Shown here in pieces: positions 2,672-54,300 of a DNA stretch of 64,000 bases. Position 1 is the stretch's first letter. Each line of letters begins with the position of its first letter. This DNA is from Amyloporia xantha. Lineage: Eukaryota > Basidiomycota > Agaricomycetes > Polyporales > Adustoporiaceae. The stretch lies in contig JAYKKR010000005.1 of assembly GCA_036971615.1 (NCBI GenBank), positions 372,001 to 436,000 of the forward strand. The letters are read 5' to 3'. Below the pieces are notes generated by a model, which was not told the DNA's origin, did not search any database, and saw only the letters and a program-made list of their open reading frames with translations. Made by a program: the position numbers and the translations under genes.

Positions 2672-3207
2672 CGTCTCGGTTTGATGTAGTGTCGTGGCGT
2701 GACTGCGGTCTGGGGAGCTGTGACTTGTAGGTCAGTGTGGCGACGCTATGTGTCCCTGATAAATACGATTCCAATTGGACGTGCACGGGACGTACACGAG
2801 GCGGACTCCTGGCGGAGAAGGAGCGAGATATCAAGAACCCGCACCGAAATGGGCGTCCTTATCTCTCACCTTACGTAGCTGCAATCACGTACGGTTCATC
2901 GCCAGTGACTCTCGGATCGGACAGTCTGAAACGGCCTCGCACTGGCACTGACAGCGGCTGCAAGTCGCGCTGCACGTCATCTATAGGATCCTAGTGGCGT
3001 GCAAACTATCGAATCAGTATCACAGCGGCAGTGGTGCTAAAAACATTGCATGATTTGATCATCTTTACCCAAAAAATAACAACGGCTTACATCTGAGAGT
3101 TTCCCGGAATGCAGGATACGGACGCGACTAGTGTACAACTATAAGGACATGAGATCGAGAGCAATTCAAACGGATACACAGTCCTCGTGAGCAACGCACA
3201 ATGCTAG
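2672..3207. other. intergenic region between the two BTB genes
   Basis: Holds the presumed promoter of BTB paralogue 1 and the 3' flank of paralogue 2. Open frames here are short and have no recognisable domain. No repeat or RNA gene was seen. Confidence 0.5.
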
Positions 3208-4295
3208 CTACAAGCGCAGATCAAGTTGTGCCTAGACAATGTAATATGCTTGTCAGATGAATTCTGGTTCGGGCGCCAATAGCTTGGACTGACCTGAGCA
3301 GTAGCACGATCGATTCTATCAGCAAGGATATCGCTGAACTCTGTGAGCTGTGCGAAGGCCTCTGGGCCGCAAGTTGAACAGGCGATAGCCTTCCGTAAGG
3401 ATGGATCTAGTGCTTCTTTCTCCTTTGCCACGAAGCCCACTGGTCGAAGCCTCAATTTCGACGCTGCGCGATCTATGTATTCTTTCCACCACGCGCGAGG
3501 CTCGAATGAGCGTGTGAATGAACGAACAGTGGCCTGGACTACGGATTTGCCGCCGTCGCAATCTGCGCATGTAAACCACACCCATGACCTGGAGATACAG
3601 AAGGTGGCAGTGTGGAATTCGTCTTCAATGAGAGAGAGAGAGCGGTGCTCGATGTCCGTCAAGACCCACGTTATTTCTGTGACGACAGCCAAGGCAAGCT
3701 CCATGCATTTGCCATAGTGCCGTAAATATTCCAAAACAGGAGCGGCGGGAAAGGATTGCAACTCTGCGTGCAAGACTGGCAAATGCCAGACCTGGTTGCG
3801 TAATGTCATTCTCGCCGCTGCTCGCGCTTCCTTTTTAAACCCCATAAGGTATGCCAAGACGAAGACTCGCAACGGTTGCGACTCTACGAACGTCATAAGA
3901 GTGGTTTTGAGTCGCCCCGTAGCAGCATCCAACTGATATTTCCGGCTGACTTCCAACAGGCGAGCCACGTCCTCCAAAGGAAGGGTGTATGTCGAGTATA
4001 TGGGATAGACGAGATGGAGCAGCCTGTTCATCGTCCGCCCATCTTCAGTAACGGGGATGACGGGCATTCCATTCATGTAGTCTGCGGCTGGTGTGGCACC
4101 TCGCGTTCCAACTGCCTGATCCACCGTCGGCTCTGGTGGGGCAGGCAGCAAGAACATGTCCCTGAAGACCGGCGATGCCTTTGCAAGTATGATACGATGG
4201 AGGCGAAAGTTTACCCCATCTGAAGATCGAACGATCAAGTCGGCGTCGTCGTCTTTGAAAGGATGGATTATTGGAGGTCTTGCCAGTGGGGCCAT
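3208..4295 (-). CDS. BTB/POZ domain protein, paralogue 2
   Basis: Predicted 341-residue protein from exons 4295-3294 and 3231-3208, with a 62-nt phase-0 intron (donor gtcagt, acceptor tag). The BTB/POZ domain lies at residues ~15-110 (DADLIVRSSDGVNFRLHRII, SPVFRDMF), followed by a helical region ending in an ACSTCGPEAFAQLTEFSD segment shared with paralogue 1. The methionine at 4295 is preferred over an in-frame one 24 codons upstream because the upstream peptide has no counterpart in the paralogue. The two genes are tandem, same strand, about 540 bp apart, and share the unusual tiny last exon (AQLDLRL here), so they arose by local duplication. Function unknown. Confidence 0.8.
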
Positions 4296-5236
4296 ACTAT
4301 GAATCTCGAACGGTTGGGATATCCTAGATGACCAGTTCAGGTAGAAGTACTTGTGCTTGTGCAACAAGGGAGAAGAATGAATGTATACTGTGTATAAGTA
4401 AGCGCAAGATAAGAGCCCATTTTGGCTTGGTTAGATCCGAAGGCGAGGAGCGTAGCCCACTAGCCTTGATGCTTATTGTAGTAAGTGTCATCTGCAAATG
4501 TTATCTGCAAAGCAACTGTCGGGAATCTCGTCACACTGATGTACATGGCGCAGACACAGCATCAGGATAAAGACAGTTCGTCATCGAGCTATTAACGGTA
4601 CCGAATCAAAGGTCGACGGAGTCAAGAGATTGTCGGACGAGCGCTGGACGCTCGACGGCTTACATGAGCTCTTGGTTCTGTGTCGTAAGTCTTAGTTTCT
4701 CGGCATCGTTAACGTGTGATTGTTAATTCGTTTTTATACTTGCAGCACTTTATCACGATCACGTTTCCTCATATCTCTTTTACTCTGTGACTTCTTTTGT
4801 TCAAGGATTGCGTGTCTCTTTATCGCGTGTCTTCTTATCATTATTCTCTTGTCTGTGGTTTCACTTCATATTCATATCTGGAGACATCGGTTGCCTGCAG
4901 CTATCTGCAGCGAGTATCCGGAACTCGATGTAGATAGCTGTAGCCATCGTGCTCTGGGGTTTCGCCTTTACTTTATTATATTCAGAGTAAAGTTCCATTC
5001 TTTTGTCATGTATTAAATTGTAGCCTCAAATCTGGCCCCTGTAGTCTTATTTCAGTTATTCTCACCTTATTTCTATAGCAGATAGTCATGTATCGAGCAC
5101 TGGGGTACTTTCTGACAAGAGTCATGTGGAAATGCACAGACAAGAGAGATTCAGACGCAAAAGCCCTGGCAAGTAACAGTGGCAGAATGCCAGACCCAGC
5201 AAAGTTTCAACAATTCACCCGTACAATGTCCCTTCA
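4296..5236. other. intergenic region, no supported gene
   Basis: About 940 bp between the BTB pair and the secreted pair. It contains pyrimidine-rich stretches near 4740-4870 and an intron-like gtaagt...cag stretch near 4686-4745, but no exon chain with a recognisable product could be built on either strand. Confidence 0.4.
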
Positions 5237-7758: not shown

Positions 7759-8425
7759 GGTGCTTAAGGAACCGGATTTCTGAAGTGGTAGAAAGAGACG
7801 CGATTCGAGTCATGATGTGGCAGGGAGGGTGGGGATTTATACAACCAGATGTCCAGCCACGACCGAAGCGCCAACTCGGGACCGCTCGAACTTGACAGAT
7901 CTATATATGACCATCATTCGAGTCACTGGTTGCAGAGCACAATGCCAGGGCGTGCCTGTGAGTGGGAACACAAAATGCCTAGAACTTAGTTACGTGCTGC
8001 GGGATAATATTCGTGACGTTCGCGGGAAATTCTTCGCCGGGCCAGCGGCGACTGTGGAAGACTGATCGCGAGGAACAACAAACCTAATATGCGCGCGCTC
8101 GGAGCAAGGAACAAACCTACTGGGCGCGCTTCGGGCAAGGTCACACGAAGCCGCCTGGAAACGAGGAACGCGTTGTCCGTCGCAGCTGGGGCTTGTCCCC
8201 CTTAGGCAGACTCCAAATTGTTACCTTGCAGAGAAGGGAAGGTCGTAACAACATAGGGACAAGGTCCACTTGAGCTTGTAGCTTGCCAACCGACCATTGC
8301 GAGGAGTGATGCGTTGATGCAAGCCCATCAATTGCATATTCTCTACACAAAAAATGTGATGTTCGAAACTGAGTTACAATCTCTTCTAACGACGCGTGGC
8401 ATGCATTAGAGCCTACCATTCCTCA
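7759..8425. other. intergenic region
   Basis: About 670 bp between paralogue B and the 3' end of the ABC transporter. No coding signal or repeat was seen apart from two similar short stretches around 8095-8135 (gcgcgc-containing, with repeated ggaacaaac). Confidence 0.4.
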
Positions 8426-11400
8426 TCACGAGGTAGAGAAACTTGCTCGAATACGCAGGATGTCCTGCCTCGACAAGCCTGCTTCGCTGCAGAGAGACCG
8501 AAATATGGAGTCCTCTCTATCGAATAAGTTTAAAGGGGTGTCGAACTCCGCCACTTTTCCAGCCTCCATCACGATGATCCTATCGTAGTAGACTGTCGTA
8601 TAGAGCAAAGTGTGAGTTCGAGTACGAATGGCCAGAAATGGGATACTCGCCAACTGTATTCAAACGGTGAGCAATACACAACAATGTAGACGACGCAAAC
8701 TCAGTCTGAATTGTCTTTTGCAGTTTGGCATCCATCTCGACATCGACGTTGCTCGTTGCTTCGTCCTGCATCACAAGAATTAGTTGAGATGAAGAGAATG
8801 CAGGAAGCAGGCTAGCTGTACGGACCAGAACAATGATGCGACTGTTCTTGACGAGAGCACGACATAGAGCAAGCAGCTGCTTCTCGCCTGCACTGTAGTT
8901 GGAACCTATGTGAACAGATACTGAGCTAACAAAATATACGAAAGAAACGGCTATCTACCTTCATCACTGACGGCGGCGTCCAGACTGAACTTCGCTTCCG
9001 CGGCAGGGTCATGGGAGCCATCTCTAGGCAGCAACCAGGACCTCTTTAGGGCAGAAATCAACTCTGCATCGGTACGAGTTGTCTCCGGGTCACTGCACTC
9101 ATCAGTAGATGAAACCAGATCTACAAACAGGAACATACAGGTTTTCTCGCAATGTGCCCTTGAATAGCAAGGCGTCCTGAGGGACCAAGGCCAGCCGCCC
9201 TCGAAGGGTGTCAAGCCCGATGTTTCGAATGTTGTGCCCATCTATTTCTATCGTTCCGCTCGTGACATTCACAGTTCTAACAGCAATGAAGAGCACATCA
9301 GTCATCCACATCCACCTCAGACTGGCAATCCGCATCCTACCTAAAGAGGGCTTGCAATAAGGAACTTTTTCCTGTACAAGACATTATGCAAACAATAAGG
9401 CAGGAGAGCCAATCTTAGGCAGGAGTACAACTCGCCTGCACCCGTTCTGCCTACGATACCGACCTAGGTGAAATGTAAGCCATCATGTTGAATATCCTCG
9501 CTACATGAACTCGCTTACTTTCTCTCCGGGCCGCACAGTGAATGTGACGCCTTTGAGAACCAGGGGTAGGCCTTCACGGTATGCAAGTTCAGCTTCCTTG
9601 AATTCGACCTGTCCTCTTTCCGGCCATGAGTGTGGAGGATCTTCGGACGTCGTCCTCTCGCCTTCAGAGGGTAGTTCAGTGTAATGCAGCACACGCTCCA
9701 CGGCATTGAAGTTCTGCTCATTTTGGGCATATGTCTGTACCAAACTCGCTAACAGTGGAGGATGCACATTAGTTGACGATATGTATATCAAGAATAAACC
9801 ACCAACAGAAAACCGACGTCACTGGAGGATACGTGTATTCAGCTTTCAGCAAGTAAGTCCCGCCTGCTCCATGGCTTACCACTCAATGTATACGACAGCA
9901 CTACGCCGATCTTGCTTGGACTTACAGTGTACCGAAATCCGGTAGCGAACAACGCAATTCCGAGGACCAGAAGATTGCCCAAAGTATTGAGACGGATGCC
10001 AAGCCATTGTTGAATGGCAATTGTCATATAGTAAGCTCTATTCTCCATGTCTAGCCCATGTTCAGATTTCGTGATGAACCGGCGCTATATTTGGTGAATA
10101 CATGAAGTTCAACGACATATACTAATCACGACTCACTTGTGCGGCATAGGCTCTGACAGTGCTCAGTCCAGTCAATGACTCTGAGCTATGAGGTCAGCGA
10201 CAAGTGGCTAGAGACAACCAGCAGATGCTACCTGAATATGAGGCATACAGAGCGGATCGCATGATGGAGTCCAGGCGTTTGGTTTCCACGGAAGTCCGAC
10301 GATAGAAGACAGCAGCGAGGTAATAGAAGATGAGCAATGGGACGAAAAGGATGCCTAGATATGGGAATGTGTAGAACACCAATGCAATCGTTCCTATGAC
10401 AGAACTTAATAGCGGGTTTCAGCAGCGAAGTCATATGGAAGGCTGGCATTATGCACCTGAATGTTGACAGGAGCTGTGTGCGGATGATATCACGAATCAG
10501 GGATAATTAACGAGTATAAAGGATAAACACTCTACCTGGAACGCAATCATGGAGACTGCCGTATCGAGCGTGTCCTGATCACTGGACAAACGAGACATTA
10601 CTCGGCCTGGTTCAATTCATTTCAGCTACAGCGTTGCAAATCACGTTCTGTGCATCCGCACCCATTGGCGTCGTGTCAAAGAATGACGTTGGTGAGTGTA
10701 GGACAGCGCTCAACGCGTCTCTGAACATGCGTGACCCAGCGAACAAAGTCGAGAGACTACATTTTGGATCGTCAGTGGTTCGAGCTTTAGCGATGTAGAA
10801 TGTACTCACGTCAAGGACAAACTCAGTGAGAACGAGAACAGTGCGCTAGCTACACCAAGAGCAGCGTAGGTGCCCATGTATTCCCCTTGAGTAAAGCCAT
10901 GGATACTTTCCGCCGTCCAGAACCCAAGAAACAAGTTGTTCGCCACTGAAAGTAAAGTTGGATAGGTATGCATAAAAATACGTATATGAAGGTCCGGGGC
11001 TTGACTGCTGTAACGTACCTGATGCGCCTTGATACAACGAGAGGAGCATGACAATAATAAATGCCCAAAAGAGACCACCGGCATAGCGTAGATACTTTGC
11101 ATACGTCTGCATGGTCACTGCGCCAATGTTTCGCTCCTCTTTTTGCATGAGAGGTCGGGAGTCCTTGGAGTCGGGCTTATCCGCCGCGGAAACTGTCTTG
11201 TCCTGCTTCACTACGGAAGTGACTTCTTCCTGTTCCTTCTCGAGGTTACCATACTCTTCCATCAACCGAGAAAAAATGTTACTAGAACTCATTAGATCCT
11301 AGACAACCGATTTAGCCCGAGTGGACTAAAATCAGTGCGACAGCATTCTGGCTATCGACTTACCAGATAAGTACCCTGTTCTGCGATGACTCCATTGTCC

Positions 11401-14400
11401 ATGACATAGATGTAGTCGGCTTTGTCCAAGACATGCAGCGCATGGGTCACCAGCACCCGCGTCTTCCCGGACAATGGGCCGCTTAAAAGACAATTATCGA
11501 GAATCGCCTTACCGACATGAGCATCGACGGCGCTCAGTGAGTCGTCCATCAAGACGATATCCGCGTCTGAGTAGGCAGCTCTAGCTAGCGAAACTCTGGC
11601 CTACAAAGTGATGGCGCAGTGAGGTTACTACACTGACTGAAGCAGGGTGTCCCAATCATACCTTCTGTCCACCTGACAGGATGAATGGCATCGTCAATCG
11701 AGGATGAAATTAGCGGCCATTATCCGTGAGCACATACCACTTAAGTTGATCCCTCTTTCGCCAATCTCCGTATCTTCCCCATCCGGCAACATCTTAAGGT
11801 CCGAACGCAGACAGCATGCATCAACAATATCTTGGAATCTGTTTTCTCATTGTAAGAATCACTGCATTGGGTAAGCTGTCACGCACTTACTTGGTCTCAT
11901 CATCAGCTTGTCCGAAAGTGATGTTTTCGCGTAGAGTGGCATTCATGATCCAAGCGGACTGCGGCACGTACGCAACAGGCGACGAAAAGACAGTCTGCGG
12001 GAAGGAATGAGTCATGACATCAGCACGAATCTCAGAAGTTGAAAGTATGCCGAGCCTACCTTGCCCTTAACTCTCCTCATCTCTCCGATTAAGGCTTGCA
12101 ACAGGGAGCTCTAGAATACAGTCTTGAGAGTCGACTATTAGATGTACTCAAGCATAAACGCATACCTTTCCCGAGCCAATTGTTCCCACTATAACAACAA
12201 AGGAACCTCTCGGTACCTTAAAGACAAGGTCATGCAGAGCGAATGGTTTCTCATCGGGCTTCTTCACATCGTCCTGCCCAGCGGCAGCGCTATCCAGAGC
12301 CGCGACCGGAAGAATGGCGCCCCCCTTCTCCTTCCGACGACTGAAAAATTCACCAAACTTTCTCTCGCCAGCCTTTCTACCTCCAGGGCCATCCCGTCCG
12401 CCGCCCGGCCCACCAACCTTCCCACCTCGCCCTCCGGAACCACGGCCACGACCGCCCCGTCCGAGTTTCGTAGGCTCGGGTTTGCCTACCGTCTCCCACG
12501 AGAACTCGCCCTCGGTATCGATAGCGAGTTCACTGGCAGGCTCGATGAGGTACGGCTCTGCGAGCTCCTCCGCGACGAGGTACTTAGAAATGCGCCCTAG
12601 GGCAACAACTGCGTCGGAGGAGACTGTGAAGACCATCGGCAAGTTCCTGAGTGGCGTGCCGAGGATCTGGTGTAAAGCGGACAATATTAGCATATATCCA
12701 AATGCGCAGGAATCATAGCTGGATTGCGTACGTTGAAGAATTGGAGCGCGGTAAAGATGACGGCGATGCTGAGATTGTGTCCGCTGAGCGCGTATGTGAT
12801 CTGATGGGGCGTTCGAAGGTCGCATGAATATCACAAGTACATAGTCACATTCGGACAGACAACTTACAAATGACAATATGGCAGCAAGGACCGGAACCAT
12901 CGTGACGATACTGATTAGACCCGCTCGCGCGACACTATGAGTTGACCAACGTGTCAGCGACAAGCAAACAGTATTAAGCCATACCCCCTGCACTCACCCA
13001 AGCCTTCGAATATGGCTAAGCTCACGCTTGCGCACATTCCAGATCTGCTGCGCATAGAAGCTCTCCCACACGTAGTGCTTGATGAGCCGGATGCCTTGCA
13101 ACACCTAAGCCCCGTACACCTAACGTCAGCCCATGGCCAGGGAAAACAGCTTATCAGCGTACCTCGGTGACAAGCCGCACACGCTGGTCAGTGACGACCA
13201 CGCCCTGCTTGCGCTGCCTGAACATGGTGCGCACGAAGAGGGTCTGGAGAGGGAACCCGAAGACGAGGACCTGTTCCAAGAGAGGTTAGGCGGCGACAGG
13301 CGACTGAAAGTCACTCGTTCGATACGTACAGCCAACCCGACGAGCGCAGAGTACCCGAGCTGTAAATCCCCACATCGTCAGACGTCAGAAAGGACGCAGA
13401 CACGATACGCACCTGCCCGATCAGCAGCCCGATACCGATCGCAATCTGCGTCGGTGCGACCCACAGACTGCGCGCATCAAGAGGTTTTGATCAATCAACC
13501 AGAATGATGTACGAGGCAGAAGGGACGTACTTATGCGCGAATGCGGTGACTCGCTCGAGACGCATCGCGTCCGTCGAGATCATCGTCGTAATCTGGCCGA
13601 CGCTATGATCGAGTCGTGCCCGTCCGCTCAGACGGAGCGACTTGCGGAAGATGCATCCGATCACCTGCGGAGAGGACAGTTAGTATCGAACGGTCTTTGT
13701 AGATCTGTCGTGAGGAGACTGCTGGATCGGGACACGTACACTGGTGCGCACTTGAAGTCCGGTGGTCATTGTCACTGAAGACACGGTCAATACGCCTTGC
13801 CCCTACCAGTAAGTGTAGGAGACATACTAAGGGAATAGTGGCTAGTGATCTTGCATCATGCCAAAAGATCAACAGTCAGAATAATCCGTATTCGCCCTTA
13901 AATTAATCTTACCACACTAGATGCCTCTAAACGTTGCAGTGTCACCACAAGATGGTCCCATCTAGTAAGAATGCGTGAAACATACCCTGCATGATGAATA
14001 TGGCAAATGCCAGCCCAACCCCATACCCAATCCCCTTCGGCGGTTCCGCACCAGAAGCCTCGCGTTCTTCCGCTGACATGCGATGCCAAGAATACGAAGC
14101 GGTGAGCCACGTAAGGAACAGCTTGTTCACCAGCGGCGAGGTCGTGTTCAGTGTATCTGCACATTGCAAGCAGTCATATCTTGGTCAGTACCAAGATCTC
14201 TGACTCATTAGTAGCATCAGGAGATGACATACTAGCTGTGAATGTCAGAATGCCCGCCCCCCACCAGCGCCAGAAAAACGTAGCGTGGAGTGCCTTCAGT
14301 AAGGAGCCATCGTACTTCTTCGGTTCACTTCCAGCCGCTGTTTTCGGCTTGGTCTCGCTCTTCTCTGGCGCGCCAGATGTCATTTCTTGGATAGGCTGTT

Positions 14401-15034
14401 CCTCAATGTCCACAACCCCCTTCTTCTCGTCGTCAAGTGGATGCTTCACGTCGGCTTCCGCACTCGAATCTGCAGAAGACGAAGGGTTGTCCGCAGAGCT
14501 GCCCGCGCGCTCGGGGCCTTCGAGGTCGCGTAGGAAGAGAGGGCGCTGCTCCGGCGGACATCGAGCATAGAATGCGCTCTCAACTCTGTCGCTTAGGTTC
14601 CCTGTGAGGCGCTTCGAGGGAAGCTGCCAGAGATCTTACATAACACTGAATTTGAGACGGCCGTGCGCAGGGTAGATGAAAGGATGTCCTTACCTTCTTT
14701 CTGGAGTGGACGCGAGAAGCCCACCATGAGGAAAGGATCGAGCCATGAAAAAATCAGCCTGGAATAGTATCTACGCAGGAAATGTTACAGTGTCAGTCCG
14801 TTTCTAACGCCGTGGGTGGACGAAAACGACGCCATGAGCTGCGTTGCGCTGACTCTTTCCAGACAATCGGCACATAGCGAGCTTGTATTTTACCTCGAGC
14901 TCAGATGCTACGGCGTACGTCTTGTTCAATCGACAGCGTCGAAAATGAGACACTTACGGGGCCTGTTCCTCTGGTACGACTGTGCGTTCTCCAAACGCCG
15001 GAGGCTTCGGAGGGGGGTGGAACGGATTGTACAT
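8426..15034 (-). CDS. ABCC (MRP/YOR1-type) multidrug ABC transporter, many exons
   Basis: Full ABC exporter with order TMD1-NBD1-TMD2-NBD2 on the minus strand. It starts at 15034 ([20 protein letters not shown]); the second exon gives [20 protein letters not shown], the typical ABCC entry. TMD1 lies at about 14.2-12.7 kb. NBD1 has Walker A GTIGSGKSSLL split by an intron near 12.1-12.2 kb, an [14 protein letters not shown] signature (~11.6-11.7 kb, also split) and Walker B IVLMDD with [14 protein letters not shown]2 is at about 11.1-9.8 kb. NBD2 has Walker [15 protein letters not shown] (~9.4 kb), [15 protein letters not shown] and LDEATSNVD (~8.7-8.9 kb). Both ATP sites look intact. Fungal members pump out drugs and peptides or conjugates at the plasma membrane. 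Exon borders beyond those quoted were not all fixed. It is the nearest exporter to the putative RiPP genes. Confidence 0.88.
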
Positions 15035-15729: not shown

Positions 15730-16425
15730 CAACCTAGATTAGAGTTTGTTTGGCTGCACCAAACAACGCGCTACGCGACGCGACGTGTACGTATCGTCTT
15801 TGCAACCGTCAATCACTCTATTTCCTGTCCTTGTCTCTCCATACCCGCAAGCTTAAGCCTGATCATCACACTATTCTTTACCTCCACGCAGGTCGCGTGC
15901 ACCCATATCACTCCTTCAAAGCTTCAGCTTCATCTCTTGCGCTCCTGTAATGAGAATGCCAGAACTCGCGAGGGATCTCAATCTCTTGCGCCTCCAACTC
16001 AGGATAAACGAACTTCCTCCTGTACCTCCAGACCGATTATTCACCTTAGGCTAGCCATGTGGGGTCTTCTCGTATGTACTCCCTCATGCCTCGCGGCTGC
16101 ACACTTTGTGGCTGGATTTCTCTTCTCTATGCCACTCCCGTTCCATGGTTGACGAACGGAGTGTGTGAAGCTGTGGCAGTGGTGTTTGATGTGGTATTGT
16201 ACCATGCTGTCGACGATCATCGGTCAGGGCAAACCAAGGATTTGGTGTCACATAAGTTGAAATGCTTTGTGGGATACCTCTGTACGAGGAGGTTCTACTC
16301 TGCCAATATGTTCACTTGTCAATTTCGCGTCTGTATACCCCTCTTCAGCCATAATTTGCAATGAACGAGAGACCGCTCGCTATCAAACGCAGCCAGAGAG
16401 CTAACTCGTGCTCGGAGCTCGGAGT
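15730..16425. other. intergenic region
   Basis: About 700 bp between the MITE and the 3' end of the first UstYa-like gene. It has pyrimidine-rich tracts and some open frames, but no recognisable protein or RNA. Confidence 0.4.
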
Positions 16426-17356
16426 CTACAGGTCACTCTGAATATGTATCGTTCTGTCGTAATCCCTGGTCATGCGGTGGTCCATCGCCCAGTCCTGTAT
16501 CTTCTTGAAATCGCGACAGGTATGCAGACCGTCCAGCCGTGGAAGGTTGATTTGCCTAGTCTCGTCCCACTCCCATCCCATCGGGTTCGTGTCGACGGTG
16601 CACATGACGGACTGCCGGAGGATGTCGATGCAATGATCTGTGTGATCCATAGGTGGGGGAATTGGCGGCGGCGGCGGATAGTGCTCCGGATGGAGGCGCT
16701 TGCGGAACATGTTCTACAGGCATGAACGGATGAACGGAATACTCTAGAGGAGCGCGATGGCTGTACGAACCAAGCAGTGCAACTGATGGAAGATCTCGAC
16801 ACTGATCACGTAGTTGTCTTCGTCTCCAGGAATCGGCGACGTCGGATCGGCCAGAAGACGGGCTTGCTCTTTCGGTATCTGCAGCATGCCCGCTACGCAA
16901 AATCGGTGCGCAAGTCAGTAAGAATGGCATGTAGTGATGGGCGCGATTCACATTGGAACAAGGCCTCCCACCGCGCATCGACCTCGTCACCGACGCCCAT
17001 GTACTCTGTCTCATACCCTCCCAGAGAGTTGTTGAAGCGAACGACAGTGTACTCCACCGCCTCTTGCAAAGGTGCTTCATCCTCGCCGTGTCAATACGTC
17101 TTTCGGTGAGGCGAGTATGCAGTAACTCACAATATACAAGACCTGGGGATTTGAGAGGCCTGAAGGCAGGACGGGGACGGTTGGACCAGTCAACTGCGAG
17201 AAGAACGATATTGAACAACGCCTGCAATACGATGATCCCGACGAATAGACGGCGGCGACGGTGGTCTGACTTCCCAGCAGCTTCTGCGAAACTTTGGGTC
17301 TCCGAGTCGCCGTCTTCTACGGATAAAGGCTCATACTTCGCGTCGTCTTGAATCAT
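16426..17356 (-). CDS. UstYa/DUF3328 family oxidase-like protein A
   Basis: Predicted 252-residue protein from four exons: 17356-17131, 17074-16952, 16892-16771 and 16713-16426 (intron phases 1, 1, 0). A short cytosolic N-terminus is followed by one membrane segment (LFVGIIVLQALFNIVLLAVDW, ~residues 37-57) and a lumenal domain. The lumenal part has YSPLQEAVEY, the first HxxHC motif (HQLHC), RLHPEHYPPP and the second HxxHC motif (HTDHC, followed by IDILRQSVMC). These two motifs are the hallmark of UstYa-type proteins, which in ascomycetes cross-link Tyr-containing core peptides of kexin-processed RiPPs; both are intact here. It is divergently paired with protein B, with identical internal exon lengths (123 and 122 nt). 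The role in this organism is inferred. Confidence 0.85.
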
Positions 17357-17969
17357 GTTGACAGTGACTCGTCAGGAGGGAGCGAGAGATGTGTGGGGAG
17401 GGGCGGGAGGTTCAAATTACCTGACCTTGCTACCTGGGCCTGGCCGCAACACTATGCCCGATCAGCGCTCAGCGCTGAGCATCGAACTCGTATCATCAAT
17501 AGGTGATAAGCGTGGCTACTTCCCGAGTTGCGACAAGCTTACTAGAATTCCAGCTGTGGGCGCCCCGTGATCCGAGGAGGCCAACTTAAACGCTGCGGTC
17601 GGGGATACACCGACATCAAGGCGCCCTACTTGTCCGATGATAAATTCTCCGCATTGATCAGATGGTGGAGCCGATTTAGCAGGTGTTGTACTTCCGTCGC
17701 ACCGCGTGGTGCCATGCGCGGCGTCCTGCCAAGGTACTATTCCTGCAGCGTTACATTGTCTTACTGAGGTGCGTCAGTGTGACGATGAAAAGGAATTAAT
17801 TTAGCGAAAGACTGTCAAGGGTCCAAGCATCAGATAAATTAGCTTTCGCCGTCCGTCCTACCCGCCGATGATTTCGGATTGATGGTGTAGATCAAGCGCC
17901 GAGGCAGGCGGACAATAATTCAAGGTACCATTTCAAACACACCTCCTGTTCGTGTTTCTTTCCTGGACA
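17357..17969. promoter_or_regulatory. shared 613-bp divergent promoter region of the UstYa-like pair
   Basis: The two UstYa-like genes start at 17356 (-) and 17970 (+), so their promoters must lie in this interval, which suggests co-regulation. No transcription-factor site could be assigned with confidence and no open frame here is supported as a gene. Confidence 0.5.
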
Positions 17970-18897
17970 ATGGACAATCACCCTGTGGAGCACAAACAGC
18001 CTCTCCTCGAAGACAATGAGGACAATGGGCAGCGGCTCGGATTTCCTCCTGCGAGCACTCAGGCGAAGCCGCAAGGACAGAAGCTCTTCGTCGGTATAAT
18101 CGTTCTTCAAGCTCTGCTCAGCGTCATCTTACTCGGAGTTGGGTGGTCTAACCATGGGCATCGCACTTCGCTCCAACTTCCGTATTGTAACGTTCACCAT
18201 CCGACTTACCTTCTGTTATACTGACATTGACAACGCGTCGTCAGCTCCAATGGAAAGCGATATTCCTTTTGTAGCGCGTCGGTGGAACACGTCCATAATG
18301 GATGGGAAAACAGAATTCATGGGCCAGTCAAGCGAGGTCGACGAGAGATGGGAAATGTTATTCAAATGTAAGCTTCACATGTTGTCAATTCGTCTGAGAA
18401 CATGTCGCTGATTTGGAACTTCAAACAGTCGGCGTACAGCAGGCTCCGAAGGACGTCGCCCGACTCCTGGCAGACCCGACGGCCCCCATTCCTGGTGATC
18501 TCGACAACTACATCTTCAGCTACGAGGTCTTTCACTTGTTACACTGCGTGGTAGGCATATTCAAAGGACAACTTGTGTGGACATACGCCTCACCAGTCGC
18601 GTTCAGAATCTGCTGCGCAAGAGGTTCCACCCAGAGTACTACCCGCCCCCTGCGCCGGAAGACGCTATCGCTCACCAGCATGGCGATCACTGCGTCGACT
18701 TCCTCAGGCAGTCTTTGATGTGCACGGTAGACATCAACCCTATGGTGTGGCAGTGGGATGACGAGAAGCAAATGACACTGCCGAAGTTGGACGCGCTGCA
18801 CGAGTGCCGCAGCTGGGACGATGTGTGGAACTGGTCGGTGGACCATCGTCTTCGCACTCCATTTGACAAGCACCTGCACCTCGACACTGGGTTGTAG
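17970..18897 (+). CDS. UstYa/DUF3328 family oxidase-like protein B
   Basis: Predicted 250-residue protein from exons 17970-18186, 18245-18367, 18429-18550 and 18607-18897 (phases 1, 1, 0). One membrane segment (LFVGIIVLQALLSVILLGVGW) is followed by YSPMESDIPFVARRWNTS, then GVQQAPKDVARLLADPTAPI, the first HxxHC motif (HLLHC), RFHPEYYPPP and the second motif (HGDHC, then VDFLRQSLMC). It ends with HLHLDTGL. Both motifs that define the family are intact. The exon-intron architecture equals that of protein A, so the pair comes from an inverted local duplication. Known relatives act in the secretory pathway on peptide substrates or on other natural products. The nearby Tyr-repeat precursor is the obvious candidate substrate, by inference. 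Confidence 0.85.
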
Positions 18898-20123
18898 ACG
18901 CATTTTGATGTCTACGAGACGGTGTAGATCAACGGTAGATATTCAACGGACACTGTAACTGACCAGTAGACATTGGATGTCCATTTTTCAATGAGATGCA
19001 ACGAGAATTGAATCAAATCCATGGAGTCTCCAGCCTCCCTTGGCTTACTACTCTAATCAGATAGCTTTGTCCTTGACCCATCCGAAGTATGTTTCCGAGA
19101 ACCCCACGTAGCTGCATTGAGAAATGTACTTTCATGTTTCATAGCTTCTCTCCTGTTCGTTCTAGCTATTCGATGAATGTAATTTTAGTCATGTTTTACT
19201 CCGGGAGAGGGCTTCTGTATTGTGCAAGATGAGGACATATGGTCATTCTGCGAAGTCGGCGGCGCGCTCGGCCATCGAAACGCACCGCATGCTCTCCTCG
19301 TACCTCAAAACGAATTGCGAGGGCCTGGTGACCACGCAGGAGGCCAGGAATTTGGCGGTTCCGGCCTCCGCTGTGATGTGCAGCAGGGCGTGTGATGGAA
19401 GCTCTCGGACATGGCGTCTCGCCCAACTACAATTTCAACCCCTCGACGGGGATATCACATATGGCGGAGACTGCAAGCGCTGATTTTACATACCTTCAAG
19501 GCATAGATCGCCAACGGCCCACCTTTCTGATGGTGTCATGACCAATTCTAAACCATATGACTCGGAGCCCGTATAGGAGGGGAATTTAGGGATGACAATG
19601 CGGATCCGGTGTCCATATGACATTCATTGACTCGGAGCTAATCAACTAAGGAATGTCAGCAGCATTTCCAATCAAACTCTCTCCTCGGACCACTGTAGAT
19701 CTGCAGTTGTCTGAAATTGACCAACAGAGTCAGCATTATCTACCACATTAAGCAGTAGTTGGCCATGGATGAGCAAGAACAGGTTCCGTTACTGATCGGA
19801 GAATAGTAGACCGCGTTATGTGGGGATCCGGCCCAGCTTGAAGGAAGTCTCTTGTACGAACTAACACAATAAACCTGCGGCCCGGAGTACTGTGTTACTA
19901 TGAATGGTGTGATAGTATGGCGAATGATGCGATACCATAAGACGTACTAAACAAAGTAAGCTATGACGGGCGTTTGACGGCGCATCATTATGGTGCATCA
20001 ACGCTGGATCGCAGTGCACTACTAAGTAGTAGGCGAGCGGCTCGAGCTTTGAGGTGGGCCGCTCGTGCCTCGTGATCGCCGACAGAATCGGCCAAGCTCG
20101 GGCGACGAATGTACGTACTAGAT
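18898..20123. other. gene-free region downstream of UstYa-like B
   Basis: No exon chain could be supported. An open stretch near 19220-19510 (+) and one at 19861-20412 (-) lack recognisable domains, and the latter runs through the inverted-repeat element at 20124-20305. Confidence 0.4.
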
Positions 20124-20305
20124 ATACAGTAGACAATCTCATAATGCATGAGCTCATAATGCATAAAATCTCGTAATGCATAGGCCGGGTCGGGAACCAA
20201 CCTGGGGTCAGCCACCTATTTGTCAATATGCTCATGCATAAAATCTCATAATGCATACGCCAGGTGGGGGACCAACGTGATGCATTATGAGATTGTCTAC
20301 TGTAT
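20124..20305. mobile_element. 182-bp inverted-repeat (MITE-like) element
   Basis: Perfect 26-bp terminal inverted repeats: 20124-20149 begins atacagtagacaatctcata, and 20280-20305 is its exact reverse complement. Inside are further copies of a cataaaatctc(a/g)taatgcata motif in direct orientation and two similar gggaccaac-type blocks. No clear target duplication was found (ta on the left, tt on the right). It is non-coding and looks like a short TIR element or a fold-back repeat. Confidence 0.65.
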
Positions 20306-20945
20306 TTCCAAATACTTAGGCCCCATCCGCATGGGCGGTGAGTCCACATCGGACTCCGAAGCGGCTGGATCCACAGTGCATCCACTTCAGTAGGAGGTAG
20401 CGCTCGAACCAACTACATAGGAAGAGACAGAGGTAAGGACATTAAAAGGATATCTCGACTACAAAAGGATTAGCAGCCCGGCTTTCCTGCTCAGACAGAT
20501 CCGCCGATTCAGACGAGATGTGGAGACTGCCCTGCAGGTACCGGTGCAAGATCGCTTTTGAAATGCACACTGCACGTTGCAAAAATGAGCAGCGCCCACG
20601 CTTGCCCACGTCCTGATGAGGAAAGTATCGTGAGATCAGGTCTAATTACTTATACTACTGAATGACTTCCTTCGGTGTTATTGGTCAAGCAACGGAGACT
20701 TTCTTCCTCCGTTTGTGTTTGAAGGTCAGCCCGGGCGCTTCCCCAAAGCAATGGTTCGCCGCGTCACGCATCACGACCTCTGCGCCTCGATTACTATACT
20801 CTTGATTGCTTATTTGTTCTCGTACTCAGCCTGTCGCATGACAAGAAGTAGCACTCACTGCTTGCTTCCAGTCATCACCCAAACAGATCCTTTTCAATTC
20901 GAGTTGGCTGTACTTTGCTCTCAGAGGTGTAAATTACCGTAAATC

Positions 20946-21518
20946 AATAGGGGAGTTCAGAGTAGGGTTTTCGAGGCGGTTTTCGCGCAGGTTTTCCGCT
21001 CAGCTTTCAGCCTCGGTGGAGACCGAAAACCGCGGTCAGCTTTGATCGTGGTGCGGAAAACCGCTTTCAGCTTTCGGCATGCGGACGCGGCACCGTTGTC
21101 GGAGTCCGAAATATACTGGGAAAGGACGGGGAAAGCCGCGCGTCTGTGCACTGTACCATACTTATAACACTGTGTACTCACTCCCCTAGGGCTAAACTTA
21201 TGAGTGTAAACATGGCACATTATCTCTGACTGACTAGATATAACCTGCTGGAAGGAATCTTGTTTTATTTTAATGGGAGCCAAGGTTGAATAATAGTCGT
21301 GCTTAAACTGAGGACACTAGCTGCCTAGTATGGAACATTACATAAAGCCCTATTTTGAACTCCGACCACAATGCCGCGTCCGCATGCCGGAAGCTGAAAG
21401 CAGTTTTCCGCACTACGATCAAAGCTGACCGCGGTTTTCGGTTTCCACCGAGGCTGAAAGCTGAGCGGAAAACCTGCGCGAAAACCGCCTCGAAAACTCT
21501 ACTCTGAACTCCCCTAAT
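20946..21518. mobile_element. 567-bp fold-back element with ~150-bp inverted repeats
   Basis: The two ends (starting 20949 and ending 21515) are near-identical inverted repeats of roughly 150 bp, beginning AGGGGAGTTCAGAGTAG and running through GGTTTTCGAGGCGGTTTTCG to GCATGCGGACGCGGCA with only a few mismatches. The middle ~250 bp is single copy. A 3-bp direct repeat AAT abuts both ends (20946-20948, 21516-21518). No coding capacity. The high arm identity suggests recent origin or gene conversion. The element ends about 600 bp upstream of the peptide-precursor start. Confidence 0.8.
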
Positions 21519-22050
21519 GCACAGCCGGCGTTTGTTGACACCAAGCAGCCGCGGTGGATCATGATACTAAGAATAGGGTGAGAAGAACAGGACCATGAAA
21601 AATAGGCCCAAACTTCGGAATTTCGAGAAATGCGGTCGTCTAGCTCGCCATAGCTCACCATGCGCGCGTCCGCTGACAGCGATCCGTACTGATCTTCGCC
21701 GCACGTTTAATGCTTGGGAGGGTTTAGGTTCCACCGAGGAGGAGCTATGAGGTAAGCTCACTCATCGTGCATCAAATGATGAAACCCAATTGACAGGTCA
21801 CTTGGGATTTGGTATCTTCCTTGCTGATGGAAATCATCGACATCGAGGTCGACTAAACCGGATACGAATAATCCGATCTCGGAATGAAGAGCCTGATTCT
21901 GATTCTGTGATGGGATATCGAAATGATTGGACGAACCTGACGGTGTATTCACCCCGCCGCATTCAATCGGAGATCTGCTACTGTACCTCTCCGCCAAGGT
22001 GTGAGCTCTGGTAATCGAATGCGGCCGACTCGGGGGCCACTCCTGTACAG

Positions 22051-22059
22051 TATATAAGG
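22051..22059 (+). promoter_or_regulatory. TATA box of the peptide-precursor gene
   Basis: The sequence tatataagg lies 58-66 bp upstream of the precursor start codon (22117). Its placement just before the start, with a presumed short leader (atggcagaaacttcagtctg...), is typical of highly expressed fungal genes. No other gene starts nearby on this strand. Confidence 0.65.
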
Positions 22060-22116
22060 GGTACAGGGGGATGGCAGAAACTTCAGTCTGCACCGCCTGT
22101 ACTCTCCCAAGCTGCA

Positions 22117-23522
22117 ATGAAGTTCTCCGTCATCCTCGCTTTCTGCACCATTGCGGTGTCCTCAACTGCGGCTCTTCCCACCGCGGTGAGTAATTTTGTT
22201 GATGTTCAACTGCTGCCTTTCCTCACGTGGGATGTACTACTTCAGAAGCGCGATGTGGCAGCGGGTTTCGAGAAATCTTACTCAGACTACTACAAGGTAT
22301 GTATTAATTTACTGCGGACCGTGATGCACATTCTTACTGGGCCTCAAAGCGGGAGGCAGAGGCCGAGGTAGAGGCTGACTTTGAGAAATCTTACTCGGAC
22401 TACTACAAGGTATGAGTCGTTCAGTGTGGCCTATGATGCAATATTTTACCGACCCTCCATAGCGCGAGGTAGAGGCCGATTTCGAGAAGTCCTACTCGGA
22501 CTACTACAAGGTATGTATCCATTACTGCGGCCTATGACACACATTCTTACTGAGCCTCAAAGCGCGAGCCAGAGGTAGAGGCTGACTTCGAGAAATCTTA
22601 CTCGGACTACTACAAGGTATGCGTTGATTACTACCGTCTATGATGCAATCTCTTACTAAGCCTTCATAGCGCGAGCCTGAGGTAGAGGCCGATTTCGAGA
22701 AGTCTTACTCGGACTATTACAAGGTATGGGTTGGCTAGTGCGGCCTATGATGCAATCTTTTACCAAGCTCCCATAGCGCGAGCCCGAAGTAGAGGCTGAT
22801 TTTGAGAAGTCTTACTCGGACTACTACAAGGTATGCATTGATTACTGTGGCATATGATGCAATCTTTGACCAAGCTCCCATAGCGCGAGCCCGAAGTAGA
22901 GGCCGATTTTGAGAAGTCTTACTCGGACTACTACAAGGTACATGTTGCTCAGTGCGGCCTATGATGCAATGTTCACTGAGCCTCCGTAGCGCGACGTAGA
23001 GGGAGATTTCGAGAAGTCTTACTCGGACTACTACAAGGTATGGGTTGTCTAGTGCGGCTTATGATGCATATTCTTACCGAGCCTCAAAAGCGCGAGGTAG
23101 AGGCTGATTTCGAGAAATCTTACTCGGACTACTACAAGGTACATGTTGCTCAGTGTGACCTATGATGCAATCTTTTACCGAGCCTCCATAGCGTGACGTA
23201 GAGGCCGATTTCGAGAAGTCGTACTCCGACTACTACAAGGTATGGGTTGTTTAGTGCGGCCTATGATGCAATCTCTAACCAAGCTCCCATAGCGCGAGCC
23301 TGAGGTAGAGGCCGATTTCGAGAAGTCTTACTCGGACTACTACAAGGTATGTGTTCCTTGCTGCAGTCTATCATGCAGCCACTTACCAAGTCTCAGAAGC
23401 GCGAGCCTGAGGTAGAGGCCGACTTCGAGAAGTCTTACTCGGACTACTACAAGGTATGTCACACTTCCTTGCTGCAGTCTATCATGCAGCCACTTACCAA
23501 GTCTCAAAAGCGCTCCTTGTGA
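22117..23522 (+). CDS. secreted kexin-type repeat precursor (12 Tyr-rich peptides), candidate RiPP precursor
   Basis: Predicted 235-residue protein from 14 exons: 22117-22185, 22246-22296, 22350-22409, 22463-22510, 22563-22616, 22670-22723, 22777-22830, 22884-22937, 22990-23037, 23091-23138, 23192-23239, 23293-23346, 23400-23453 and 23511-23522. All introns are phase 0, 52-60 nt, GT-AG. Exon 1 is a signal peptide (MKFSVILAFCTIAVSSTAAL). Exons 2-13 each encode one repeat, typically REPEVEADFEKSYSDYYK; FEKSYSDYYK is invariant in all twelve while codons vary. Exon 14 encodes RSL and stop. Lys ends each repeat exon and Arg starts the next, so splicing creates the Lys-Arg (Kex2) sites. Exon 3 carries an EAEAE spacer like dipeptidyl-aminopeptidase targets. 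Kex2 plus carboxypeptidase trimming would release peptides ending SYSDYY. The two UstYa-like genes nearby suggest a Tyr-cross-linked RiPP; a surface-active repellent-type peptide is the main alternative. Activity is unknown. Confidence 0.85.
22246..23453 (+). repeat. tandem exon-intron repeat array, ~101-107 bp period, 12 units
   Basis: Each unit is one 48-60 nt exon plus one ~53 nt intron, and introns are as clearly homologous as exons (shared gcggcctatgatgcaatct core and ...ccatag or ...tcaaag ends). Higher-order copies are visible: introns 8 and 10 both start gtacatgttgctcagtg, introns 9 and 11 both start gtatgggttgt, and the exons between them share the DVE variant, showing duplication of a two-unit block. 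Introns 12 and 13 form another recent pair. Confidence 0.9.
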
Positions 23523-50866: not shown

Positions 50867-50891
50867 TTTTTTTTTTTTTTTTTTTTTTTTT
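50867..50891 (-). repeat. 25-nt poly(A) tail of the LINE (T run on + strand)
   Basis: An uninterrupted run of 25 T sits at the edge of the target-site duplication, the expected 3' terminus of a target-primed retrotransposon. Confidence 0.9.
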
Positions 50892-50915: not shown

Positions 50916-51190
50916 CACTGGATGCGGTTTAGAATATTTTCCAGTGAGATATGGTGAAAATATTGTAAAGTAAGTCAAAATACTTTTAGCATAATCGACT
51001 CTTGAGTATTTGGAAAATATGGAAAATATATTGTATAGGCTAGAAGATATTGTAAATGTGCTCAAAAGATTAGGATATCAATTGAAAAATATTAGGATTT
51101 TGTTTGCTGTAAAGGGCAAAACTTATTCTGACTATGTTTAGAATATCTTTAGAATATACTTGTCAGAAGTATTCTAAACCGCATCCAGTG
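50916..51190. mobile_element. 275-bp AT-rich TIR element nested in the LINE 3' region
   Basis: Perfect terminal inverted repeats of about 21 bp: CACTGGATGCGGTTTAGAAT at 50916 and its reverse complement ending at 51190. The interior is AT-rich with many copies of gaatatt/aaaatatt-like motifs, unlike the GC-rich LINE around it. A clean target duplication could not be identified. Non-coding MITE. Confidence 0.75.
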
Positions 51191-51315
51191 CGCGGCGGAC
51201 AGGCAGACAAGGTCAGCTTCCGCGGGTCATGTGCTGAGCGGCGGGCTTATCGCCCGCTGCTTATCCGAGAAAAAATGCAATTTAGGCACGACCGCGGTAG
51301 CGGCCAGTGTGGGAC

Positions 51316-54300
51316 TCAAGGGGGTTGTCCGCCGGGCTGCCAAGGCGGCAGCTCCGGGGCCCTAATACCCACTAAAAACTCTGGGGGGAGCCAGTCATCT
51401 GGCAGGCTGTGTTCGTCTTGCAGGATCCCGCTCCACGTGGACAGGACGAGGGTAGGGTGGATTGCTTTCCTACCGAGTTGGCGTCTGGTCATCGCTCGGT
51501 CTAGGGTCAGGCGGGTGTTGATTGCCCGTGCCCATTTCGATCTTATTGTGTTCGGGGGGTGCCAGCGGTTTGTTTCCGTCCCGAATTCTATGACCCGTTC
51601 GCATCGTAACGTCCATATTAGGTACGCCGCCTCCGATATTAGGATCCTGAAGAGGCGGCCTGCGCCTTCCCTAGGGGCGCCTCTTTTGTTAGGGAAGACC
51701 GCCAGTCCGCAGCTGAGTATGGTGCCGAGGGACAGGGTCGGCCAGTGGTGGTGCTTGAGGAGCCACAGACGGCGTGTGAGGTCCCACACTTCGCGTTGTC
51801 CCGGGGCCTCACATTCGGTGAGGATGTGGGTCATCGATTCCTCCGTGCCGCACTTAGCGCAGACACCCCGGTGCTCGTAGTTCGGGATATGGTCCCAGTA
51901 CGCGCCGACTCTGTGCGCATCGTGCATGGTCTTCCAGAGAAAGTCCGATATGGGTCGGGCGATGTCTTTAGAGCGTAGGGCCAGCCACAGTGCTTCATCC
52001 GACGGGAGGCGGCCGGTTGTATCGCGGTCCGCATGGTGCGCGATGTCCAGGTGGATCAGGGTGGAGCGGCGTTGTGGTTTCTTGGATGATTCTCTTATGC
52101 CCTTGTATGCTAGGGCCTGCGTGAGCGTTGTCAGTCTGATCCCAGTGAGGTTATACTGTGGCGCGACCGACAGGGATAGGGGTGGGCTTGTGTTCGGTTG
52201 GGCATTTGCCCCCTGTTTTGCGAGCAGTCGTGCACGGCCAAGGTCTGGTGGGGCTTGTTCTCGGTTCGCCCAGCGTAGTATGGTGGGAGCGGAGCGTTTC
52301 CTGAGGTTGTATGCCAGGGCTCGGAAGAGATGACTGTGGGGGACACCGATCCAACCTCGGTCCTCCCATTCGTTCAGTTTCTTGGTCAGGCCCCCGATCA
52401 CGTACCACGAGGTACTTATGATGCAGAGCGGTTTGAAGTTCGGCGTCAGCGAGGCCGCCAGGAGGAAACCCGTCAGATGTCCGGCCTGTGTTGATTGTGT
52501 AGGGCCCGGGGTGCGGGCGTAGTGGCCGGTTGAGGTTGCTGGGAACCAGATGCCGCCCCCGGCGCGTGCATCCTCATTCCCTGCGCGCGAGCAGGCCCCG
52601 TCCACAACCGCTAGTACGACTCGGGTGTCAGCTTGGATCCCTGGGGCGGGCCGGTGGGCTGGGAGGTCGGAGCGTGTCCCTTTTTCGACGAGCACTCGGA
52701 AGGCTTGGGTGATGTCATCCTTGGACGTTATGGACGGGTCAAAGAGGAGGTCTTCTTTACCGGCAAGGGCTTCCATGTTTCTGTCAAGTCTCAGGGGGGT
52801 GAGGGTCAGGCCATCAGCCGGGGGGAGGGTTTCCGGGTCCCATTTACCTTTGAGTTGGGTGAGGAGGCGTTGTGCGGTTTTGCAGCACGCGTCAGGGTTT
52901 TTGCAGCCCCCGGTGTTTCTATCCGATGAGCACGGTGCGCACTCGCAGTGTCTATTTGGCTGGTGAGGGGCGGCATCGGCGTTGGTCCTAACTCGGCGGG
53001 TGAGGTCGATTAGGTCTCCGACTGTTCTGACTCCATGCGAGTTCCGGAGACACTTGCTCAGCTTGGAGTTGTTCATGCGGTTTAGGGCGTCACCTGTGCC
53101 AATGTGGTACCAGATTGGCAGTCGGTTTTTCAGGGTGGGGGAGAGCTTGGTGGCCGTCAGGGATGTTTGGTATCGTTCCCCCGCCTTCACCATTGCAGAG
53201 AGGTCTTTTGGGAGTTTGGACCCGGGGTGGGTCCCCACTCTCCAGTTCTGCGTGAACAGGTTGTGTTGCGCTGACAGCTCGACTTGTCCGGACTTGTACG
53301 TGATATTGTGGCTGAAGAGGACGTCCGCGACTTCCGCCCAGGTTGGTCGATTGGGTCCTAGGTGTAGGAAGGCTTTGAGCCACATGAGTTGGATGGCGGC
53401 ATTGCGTGATTGAACATCGAGCAGGCCGATGCCGCCTTCGACTATTGGGAGGTAGAGGGTTTCCAGGCTGACTCTCGGATGCTTTTGTCCCTTCCATATA
53501 AAGGTCCGAATGGTCGTAATCAGGGTTTCTTCGATCGCCTTGGGCATCCCTTGAACCGTCGTCAGGTATTGTGTCATCCCACCCACTACCATCTGGATTA
53601 TCAGGCCGCGGCCCTTCAGTGTGGGGTTGCAGTGTTCCCATTGAGCGAGCGCTCTGTCTATTTTAGCGAGGACGGCTGCCCAGGGTGCTGCGGTGTCTGT
53701 GTGGTTCCCAATCCACGCGCCCAGGGAGCGTATTGCTGTACCATCGGGGACGATATGTATGTCTAGGGGAATGGGTTCCGATGTCGGTCGCATTTTGCGT
53801 GTCTCGAGCACTGTCTTCCGGAAGTCAGTCGTGCCTATGGGGATGACTTCCGTTTTGTCTACGTTGAATTTCGCCTTGGAGGCTATGCACCATGTGTCTA
53901 GGATCTGGCAGAGGTCGGAGAAGTCGTCCATTTCGGATAGAAAGGCTGTTGTGTCGTCCGCGAACAGCGATGTTATCACCCTGTGTTCAGAGCCGGGGAT
54001 GGTAAATCCCTTCAAGCTTGAGTCGCGGAGCATGCATGCGAGGGGTTCGATGGCCAGGTCAAAGAGTAGGCACGATAGTGGGTCACCCTGGCGTACTCCA
54101 CGCGTCACTCTAAAGGGGGAGCTGATCTCTCCGTTTATCACTACCACCGTTTCAGCGTTTTCGTAGAGGGATCTCACCGTCGTGATGAATTTGTCGGGTA
54201 TTTGGAAGGCGGCCAGCGTTTTCCACAGGTAGTCATGTGCAATTTTGTCGTACGCTTTCTCTTGATCGAGTGCCACTATGATTCCATTTTCCTCCACGGC

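Follow-up and report, generated by a model that had tools for sequence, protein, structure and literature searches.

A 64 kb stretch of the genome of the basidiomycete Amyloporia xantha (on contig JAYKKR010000005.1, labelled C45; hereafter the window) contains a Kex2-repeat precursor gene and a nearby divergent pair of UstYa/DUF3328 genes, here called UstYa(-) and UstYa(+) after their strands (Table 1). These three genes probably represent a UstY-type module for a ribosomally synthesized and post-translationally modified peptide (RiPP), with Tyr cross-linking as the predicted modification. The predicted module is strongly supported by co-duplication, since a second set of the three genes is present on another contig, C18. 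The genome searched comprises 46.8 Mb in 60 contigs, and gene models were spliced by script from the genomic sequence. It has 126 matches to DUF6533, a family abundant in Agaricomycetes and not known outside Basidiomycota, which fits a mushroom-type fungus.

The first-pass annotation described twelve repeats with an SYSDYY end and Lys-Arg (KR) boundaries, together with a divergent, intact pair of DUF3328 genes, each with two HxxHC motifs, 3.2 kb away. The repeats are borne out by the spliced model (22117-23522). The pair is likewise confirmed, with PF11807 scores of 164.8 bits for UstYa(-) and 138.5 bits for UstYa(+) (curated cut-off 25 bits) and a distance of 3219 nt between the UstYa(+) stop and the precursor ATG. 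The precursor reads from an ATG at 22117 to a stop ending at 23522, and consists of a leader that is hydrophobic by eye (MKFSVILAFCTIAVSSTAALPTA), 12 units and the tail RSL.

In the spliced model each unit is encoded by a separate exon of 48, 51, 54 or 60 nt, all lengths being divisible by 3 and in phase 0. Each of these exons closes in FEKSYSDYYK, and the R is the start of the following exon. There are 13 KR sites, of which 12 are formed by splicing only (11 between units and one before the tail); the thirteenth is whole and lies at the start of exon 2. The introns that split K|R are in phase 0 in 12/12 cases, measure 52-57 nt, have GT..AG borders and carry a branch-site-like YTNAC, which lies 17-18 nt upstream of the 3' end. 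Retention of any one of the eleven 52-53 nt introns generates a premature stop; the first (60 nt) and last (57 nt) introns keep the frame if retained. The unspliced DNA presents 12 stop-to-stop open reading frames (ORFs) with one core apiece, and the frame is continuous only after splicing. A plain ORF scan would thus not recognize a splice-built precursor, as the window gene shows. Protein-catalogue pipelines may also struggle with genes of this design if 48-nt exons are missed in gene calling.

Tandem Repeats Finder places an array with a period of 107 at 22266-23459. Duplication proceeds by whole exon-intron units, and repeats can therefore be gained, lost or skipped in splicing with the frame and cut sites intact. 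Mean pairwise divergence of the core segments of the 12 units is 0 at the first codon position, 0.015 at the second and 0.191 at the third, compared with a mean of 0.295 for the introns of the gene. Positions 1 and 2 are therefore near-invariant beside divergent introns, which indicates conservation of the peptide, beyond that of the DNA alone. An aromatic spacing of F-x3-Y-x3-Y is present in 12/12 window units. The spacers are rich in E/D, and in E-P, E-A and E-V after the KR. A degenerate DNA pattern for SYSDYYK has 12 sites in the genome, every one in the window precursor (reversed control, 0). No precursor homologue was found at E <= 1 among the 8000 candidates scored from 5.8 billion proteins. 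A match of the precursor to DUF1068 (25.5 bits) was dismissed as spurious, as no stretch passes on its own.

Two HxxHC motifs are the signature of the UstYa/DUF3328 family. In five aligned sequences, neither motif varies at its H, H or C. The window proteins are both complete, share 48% identity, are encoded by four exons each at corresponding places and have, by eye, a hydrophobic stretch close to the N-terminus. Copper-dependent peptide oxidase activity is predicted for the pair from its family. A sequence search of solved structures with UstYa(-) gave no credible match (best E 0.079), and an AlphaFold model of the nearest relative, P0001, from a three-sequence input had a mean pLDDT of 43.8. 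Three homologues of UstYa(+) were found in the protein search, all on JGI contigs of 1.0-1.4 kb, and no synteny can therefore be read from them.

On C18, a second divergent UstYa pair and precursor are colinear with those of the window and in the same relative orientation. A blastn search of the whole window against 24 kb of C18, at E <= 1e-10, reveals three blocks: window 16367-17472 with C18:318450-317348 (83% DNA identity), 17834-18957 with C18:317219-316089 (82%) and 21841-22256 with C18:315272-314848 (76%). The third block spans the precursor upstream region, the leader exon, the first intron and the start of exon 2. No other match was found in this comparison. Both C18 UstYa genes are intact. 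The ratios of non-synonymous to synonymous divergence (dN/dS) against the window copies are 0.15 for the plus gene (dS 0.53) and 0.24 for the minus gene (dS 0.40), and the UstYa copies are under purifying selection. The C18 precursor has the form leader-KRDVGAALERSDYSDLYDHENK|RDVPTAFEELYNDYYTVVR-stop, with two units and a K|R intron between them. Its cores, YSDLY and YNDYY, are changed from the YSDYY of the window yet related to it. The co-duplicated blocks, low dN/dS and diverged cores therefore indicate an old joint duplication of the three genes, with the enzymes kept under selection as the cores changed. The two modules offer a natural experiment, with related enzyme pairs and diverged cores. 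The synteny of the three genes called for by the first-pass annotation is thus seen, so far, between paralogous copies in the same genome.

The second and third blocks are ~0.8 kb apart on C18 and ~2.9 kb apart in the window. A miniature inverted-repeat transposable element (MITE)-like insertion at 20945-21519 accounts for part of this difference. The leader region occurs a third time, at C45:469952-470093, as a degenerate copy: the leader frame is broken, and core-like ELYSDYR and ESYSDYYDK occur in the 1.8 kb read. The closest UstYa match is a pair ~24 kb off on the same contig (C45b). This relic, a single case, is in line with a precursor that is useful only beside its enzymes.

PF11807 has 32 matches in the genome, which merge into 23 gene loci. 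Ten neighbourhoods, covering 16/23 loci, were examined: the window, C45b, C18, C34 (four genes), C32a, C32b, C32c, C4, C19 and C35. The other seven loci (two on C13, one on C42, two on C26 and two on C52) stand outside this full neighbourhood count. Those on C26 and C52 have equal scores and similar positions, as if haplotype or duplicate copies. A repeat precursor is present in six of the ten (the window, C18, C32a, C32b, C32c and C19), ~1.1-3.2 kb from a UstYa gene. A repeat scan of 261 kb gave six arrays, four of which are precursors (window, C32a, C32c and C19); word-based scanning overlooked those of C18 and C32b. The other two arrays, a 20-nt one at C45:453.9 kb and one inside an unrelated ORF at C18:327.6 kb, were rejected, as was a 54-nt repeat at C4:635.9 kb, in which no coding design was seen. 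For the C45b pair, no precursor was recognized by eye in the frames of 446150-449500 and 440800-443900. Nothing was found in 10 kb at C35, scanned for repeated words only, or in the 3.2-3.4 kb stretches scanned at the two C26 loci.

The C32a, C32b and C32c precursors are one family, as the C32c leader region, searched against the genome, matches these three alone. Their repeat-exon pattern has ten genome sites, of which C32a holds four and C32c six; the sequence of C32b is changed. In C32c, exons of 45 and 18 nt alternate to give SDLVTAGALDDFYTLDENL-KR units, and the Lys codon is split by an intron in 6/6 KR sites. C32a encodes SDLVTAGALNDHYGLNAEF-KR units, with three KR junctions and one KP junction, every one across an intron. 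Terminal exons are not included in the C32a and C32c models. C32b is shorter, and its RLY-KR and DENF-KR junctions were both taken by hand from the exon list of a model in which the first small exon is ambiguous. Overall, KR sites after a unit are intron-split in five of the six precursors (window 12/12, C18 1/1, C32c 6/6, C32a 3/3 and C32b 2/2). No intron interrupts the dibasic sites that precede the first unit in the window, C18 and C32a. At C19:376470-377427, DDLFIKYD units are bounded by RR or KR in one open stretch, and the repeat pattern is unique in the genome. In C32c (C32:104824-103461, minus strand), skipping of the 18-nt exon would place K-R straight after the Tyr (ALDDFY-KR) with the frame kept. 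Alternative splicing of this gene could toggle two peptide forms.

Units at the single-UstYa loci mostly contain one hydrophobic-x3-Tyr step (LDDFY, LNDHY, FIDIY, LFIKY); in the first unit of C32c, the exception, there are two separate steps. A hydrophobic residue stands four before a Tyr in 25/25 listed units (distinct, hand-picked, with five from C19 and two from the relic), a count that is weak because such residues are common. A post-hoc idea drawn from three families is that a pair of UstYa enzymes makes two rings and a single enzyme makes one.

Under the proposed mechanism, splicing would join the exons to give one peptide unit per exon, with Lys-Arg completed at each junction, and the leader would route the precursor to the secretory pathway. 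Units of the form (E/D-rich spacer)-FEKSYSDYY would then be freed by Kex2 and a carboxypeptidase. The genome has one Kex2-type P-domain locus and one DPPIV/Ste13-type locus. The two membrane-anchored UstY proteins would form cross-links between the Tyr side chains of the F-x3-Y-x3-Y core and residues close by. Trimming of the spacer would yield a secreted product, which may serve in defence or signalling. Cross-linking is the likely chemistry of the predicted UstY step because of what is known of the family: the DUF3328 enzymes of asperipin-2a are described, in the portion of the source available, as dicopper, oxygen-dependent enzymes that form Tyr-O to Phe-Cbeta links.

Several points weigh against a cross-linking module of this design. 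Peptides from Kex2-processed repeat proteins (KEPs) detected in four mushrooms are described as linear or minimally modified in the available part of Vogt 2022 (PMC9769878). The precursor pre-mRNA is presumed to be spliced as modelled, a pattern deduced from genomic sequence. The F-x3-Y-x3-Y spacing is present in only one of the two C18 units, the other lacking the exact spacing. Four of the ten neighbourhoods (the C45b pair, C34, C4 and C35) are without a precursor, although misses are possible, and the UstYa-linked C19 precursor has unsplit sites. Proximity itself speaks for the module, as 6/6 precursors fall in the 31.6% of the 250 kb examined that is no more than 3.2 kb from the nearest UstYa gene (approximate gene limits), but the p value of 0.001 assumes independence and ignores the kinship of loci, and with the three families counted once it is only 0.03. 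As the regions were themselves chosen around UstYa genes, this is a within-region test only.

UstYa-family proteins reportedly also install dehydroamino acids in phomopsin, and a known copper-dependent halogenase presumably belongs to the same family. It is thus conceivable, but rather unlikely, that the UstYa pair oxidizes the precursor peptides in another way (dehydrogenation, hydroxylation or halogenation), with no macrocycle. Co-duplication on C18 is compatible with any peptide chemistry. However, retention of F-x3-Y-x3-Y in 12/12 window units and 1/2 C18 units suits side-chain cross-linking.

An alpha-pheromone-like KEP that gives linear signalling peptides, with the UstYa pair serving another metabolite and adjacent by coincidence, is improbable. 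The spacers after KR resemble the STE13-type spacers described for some basidiomycete KEPs in the accessible text of PMC6339444, and linear mushroom KEP peptides, as above, would agree with this. So would the presence of nearby DUF3328 genes at only 17/76 alpha-pheromone-like KEPs, as given in the part of Umemura 2020 available (PMC7329392). However, coincidence does not readily explain why the three genes were duplicated together on C18 without their surroundings, or why a precursor is present in 6/10 of the UstYa neighbourhoods examined. That the locus is decaying or silent, its exon-intron repeats a by-product of unequal crossing-over in an unexpressed gene, is very improbable: the degenerate third leader copy on the same contig, the two-unit C18 precursor and the MITE-like element beside the precursor could be read in this way, but 14/14 exons are in frame with GT..AG introns, the core segments do not vary at codon position 1 and hardly vary at position 2, and the UstYa genes are under purifying selection.

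Umemura 2020 reports 7878 KEPs in 1461 strains, with nearby DUF3328 genes for 1647/5372 in Ascomycota and 103/1680 in Basidiomycota, or 30.1% vs 6.1% (PMC7329392, available portion). The same text asks whether cyclization hardly occurs in Basidiomycota or is performed by an enzyme with a different motif. To this question the present genome supplies a testable case, with six UstYa-linked precursors, of which five are splice-built. If such genes are common, cyclic-peptide clusters have been overlooked in basidiomycete genomes, and precursor mining needs splice-aware models. A broader proposal is tentative and stands at rather less than even chance: there may be a hidden class of exon-modular UstY precursors in mushroom-type fungi, with Kex2 sites made by splicing, in which ORF surveys see single cores. 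This would partly explain the difference between 6.1% and 30.1%, and ring number would follow enzyme number (F-x3-Y-x3-Y with two UstYa proteins, mostly L/F/V-x3-Y with one). No report of exon-per-repeat precursors or splice-made Kex2 sites was found in the literature searched, subscription journals being mostly outside it, and no cross-linked basidiomycete product was found in the literature searched.

Table 1. Features of the predicted module and adjoining sequence (positions in the window)
Feature	Position	Strand	Description
Kex2-repeat precursor gene	22117..23522	+	14 exons, 13 introns, 235 aa, 12 units ending FEKSYSDYY
Leader exon MKFSVILAFCTIAVSSTAALPTA	22117..22185	+	Signal-peptide-like by eye; conserved at C18
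Twelve one-repeat exons, first six	22246-22296, 22350-22409, 22463-22510, 22563-22616, 22670-22723, 22777-22830	+	
Twelve one-repeat exons, last six	22884-22937, 22990-23037, 23091-23138, 23192-23239, 23293-23346, 23400-23453	+	
Last exon	23511..23522	+	RSL-stop; gives R of final K|R site
Upstream region of precursor gene	21841..22116	+	Conserved at C18 paralogous locus; TATATAA-like stretch by eye
UstYa(-) gene	16426..17356	-	Exons 17356-17131, 17074-16952, 16892-16771, 16713-16426; 252 aa; HQLHC + HTDHC
UstYa(+) gene	17970..18897	+	Exons 17970-18186, 18245-18367, 18429-18550, 18607-18897; 250 aa; HLLHC + HGDHC
MITE-like insertion between UstYa(+) and precursor	20945..21519	.	169-nt inverted repeats 20945-21113 / 21351-21519, 93% complementary
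ABCC/MRP-like transporter gene beside UstYa pair	8420..14640	-	Limits approximate, frames read by eye

The transporter gene beside the UstYa pair is outside the duplicated module, with no match in the C18 region. A search of solved structures with one piece (11600-11355) gave ABCC2, ABCC3 and MRP1 as the best matches, from E 1.7e-27, with YCF1 at ~1e-20; Pfam found no family at E <= 0.001 in single-frame pieces of the gene. A second inverted-repeat element between UstYa(+) and the precursor, at 20121-20308, has 29-nt arms and a 142-bp relative, 95% identical, at C34:1268914-1269055. This is likely to be a second MITE type. Further off, a 1726-aa open frame at 51316-56496 (minus strand), endonuclease- and reverse-transcriptase-like by eye, is probably a non-long-terminal-repeat retrotransposon, with a poly-T at 50867-50891 and more ORFs to ~63 kb. 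A 276-bp piece near this frame (50916-51191) is 96% identical to C34:1286541-1286816. Two adjoining related ORFs at 1679-2731 and 3204-4430 (minus strand) have BTB-like openings, DADVCIRTSDGVSYRLYK and DADLIVRSSDGVNFRLHR, named by eye.

The first-pass annotation regarded the precursor and UstYa pair as one dikaritin-type RiPP unit and as a new branch. The single unit stands, by co-duplication on C18, but dikaritin-type applies in a loose sense only, that of a Kex2 repeat precursor with UstYa proteins, as strict features are missing. The proposed module is, by its co-duplication, a UstY-type RiPP cluster in the wide sense and not a strict dikaritin cluster. A new branch is too strong a term, since basidiomycete KEP-DUF3328 pairs have already been predicted (PMC7329392, part of the text) and the 16 UstYa-like genes of Pleurotus are called probably involved in dikaritin production (PMC8893723, part of the text). 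Dikaritins are handled under ascomycetes in the available sections of PMC9233826 and PMC6514808.

The ustiloxin and phomopsin clusters (UstA, UstQ, UstYa and UstYb; PhomA and PhomQ) resemble the window in having UstYa proteins by a Kex2 repeat precursor with Tyr in the core, and the UstYa/UstYb pair of ustiloxin parallels the window pair. In contrast, the cores of the window and C18 (YSDYY, YSDLY, YNDYY) are without the Tyr-x-Ile of YAIG and YVIP. Phomopsin-like clusters are listed with a tyrosinase and an S41 peptidase as members (PMC6514808, available section). Unlike these, the window module has no tyrosinase (PF00264) nearby, the genome matches being on contig C11 only (three exons of one locus), and S41 peptidase (PF03572) gave 0 genome matches at E <= 0.001 in a six-frame search that ignores introns.

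The secreted Kex2 repeat precursors of Coprinopsis cinerea and other Agaricomycetes in Vogt 2022 are like that of the window, and the text (PMC9769878) contains none of the terms UstY, DUF3328, exon or splic-. The basidiomycete KEPs with DUF3328 genes of Umemura 2020 present the same in-silico combination in the same phylum, and the words intron and exon are absent from its text (PMC7329392).

The asperipin-2a cluster of Aspergillus flavus (AprA, AprY, AprT and AprR) also pairs a repeat precursor with a UstY-family oxidase; there is no tyrosinase among the four genes, the core, FYYTGY, is rich in aromatic residues and a transporter lies within the cluster (PMC6514808, available section). The window differs in its two UstYa proteins, its FEKSYSDYY core, its one exon per repeat, its basidiomycete host and its neighbouring ABCC transporter, which is outside the duplicated module. 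The asperipin type, UstY without tyrosinase, is a closer model than dikaritin. The combination of KEP and DUF3328 is already predicted for the phylum, and the exon-per-repeat design would, as far as the literature searched shows, be the novel element.

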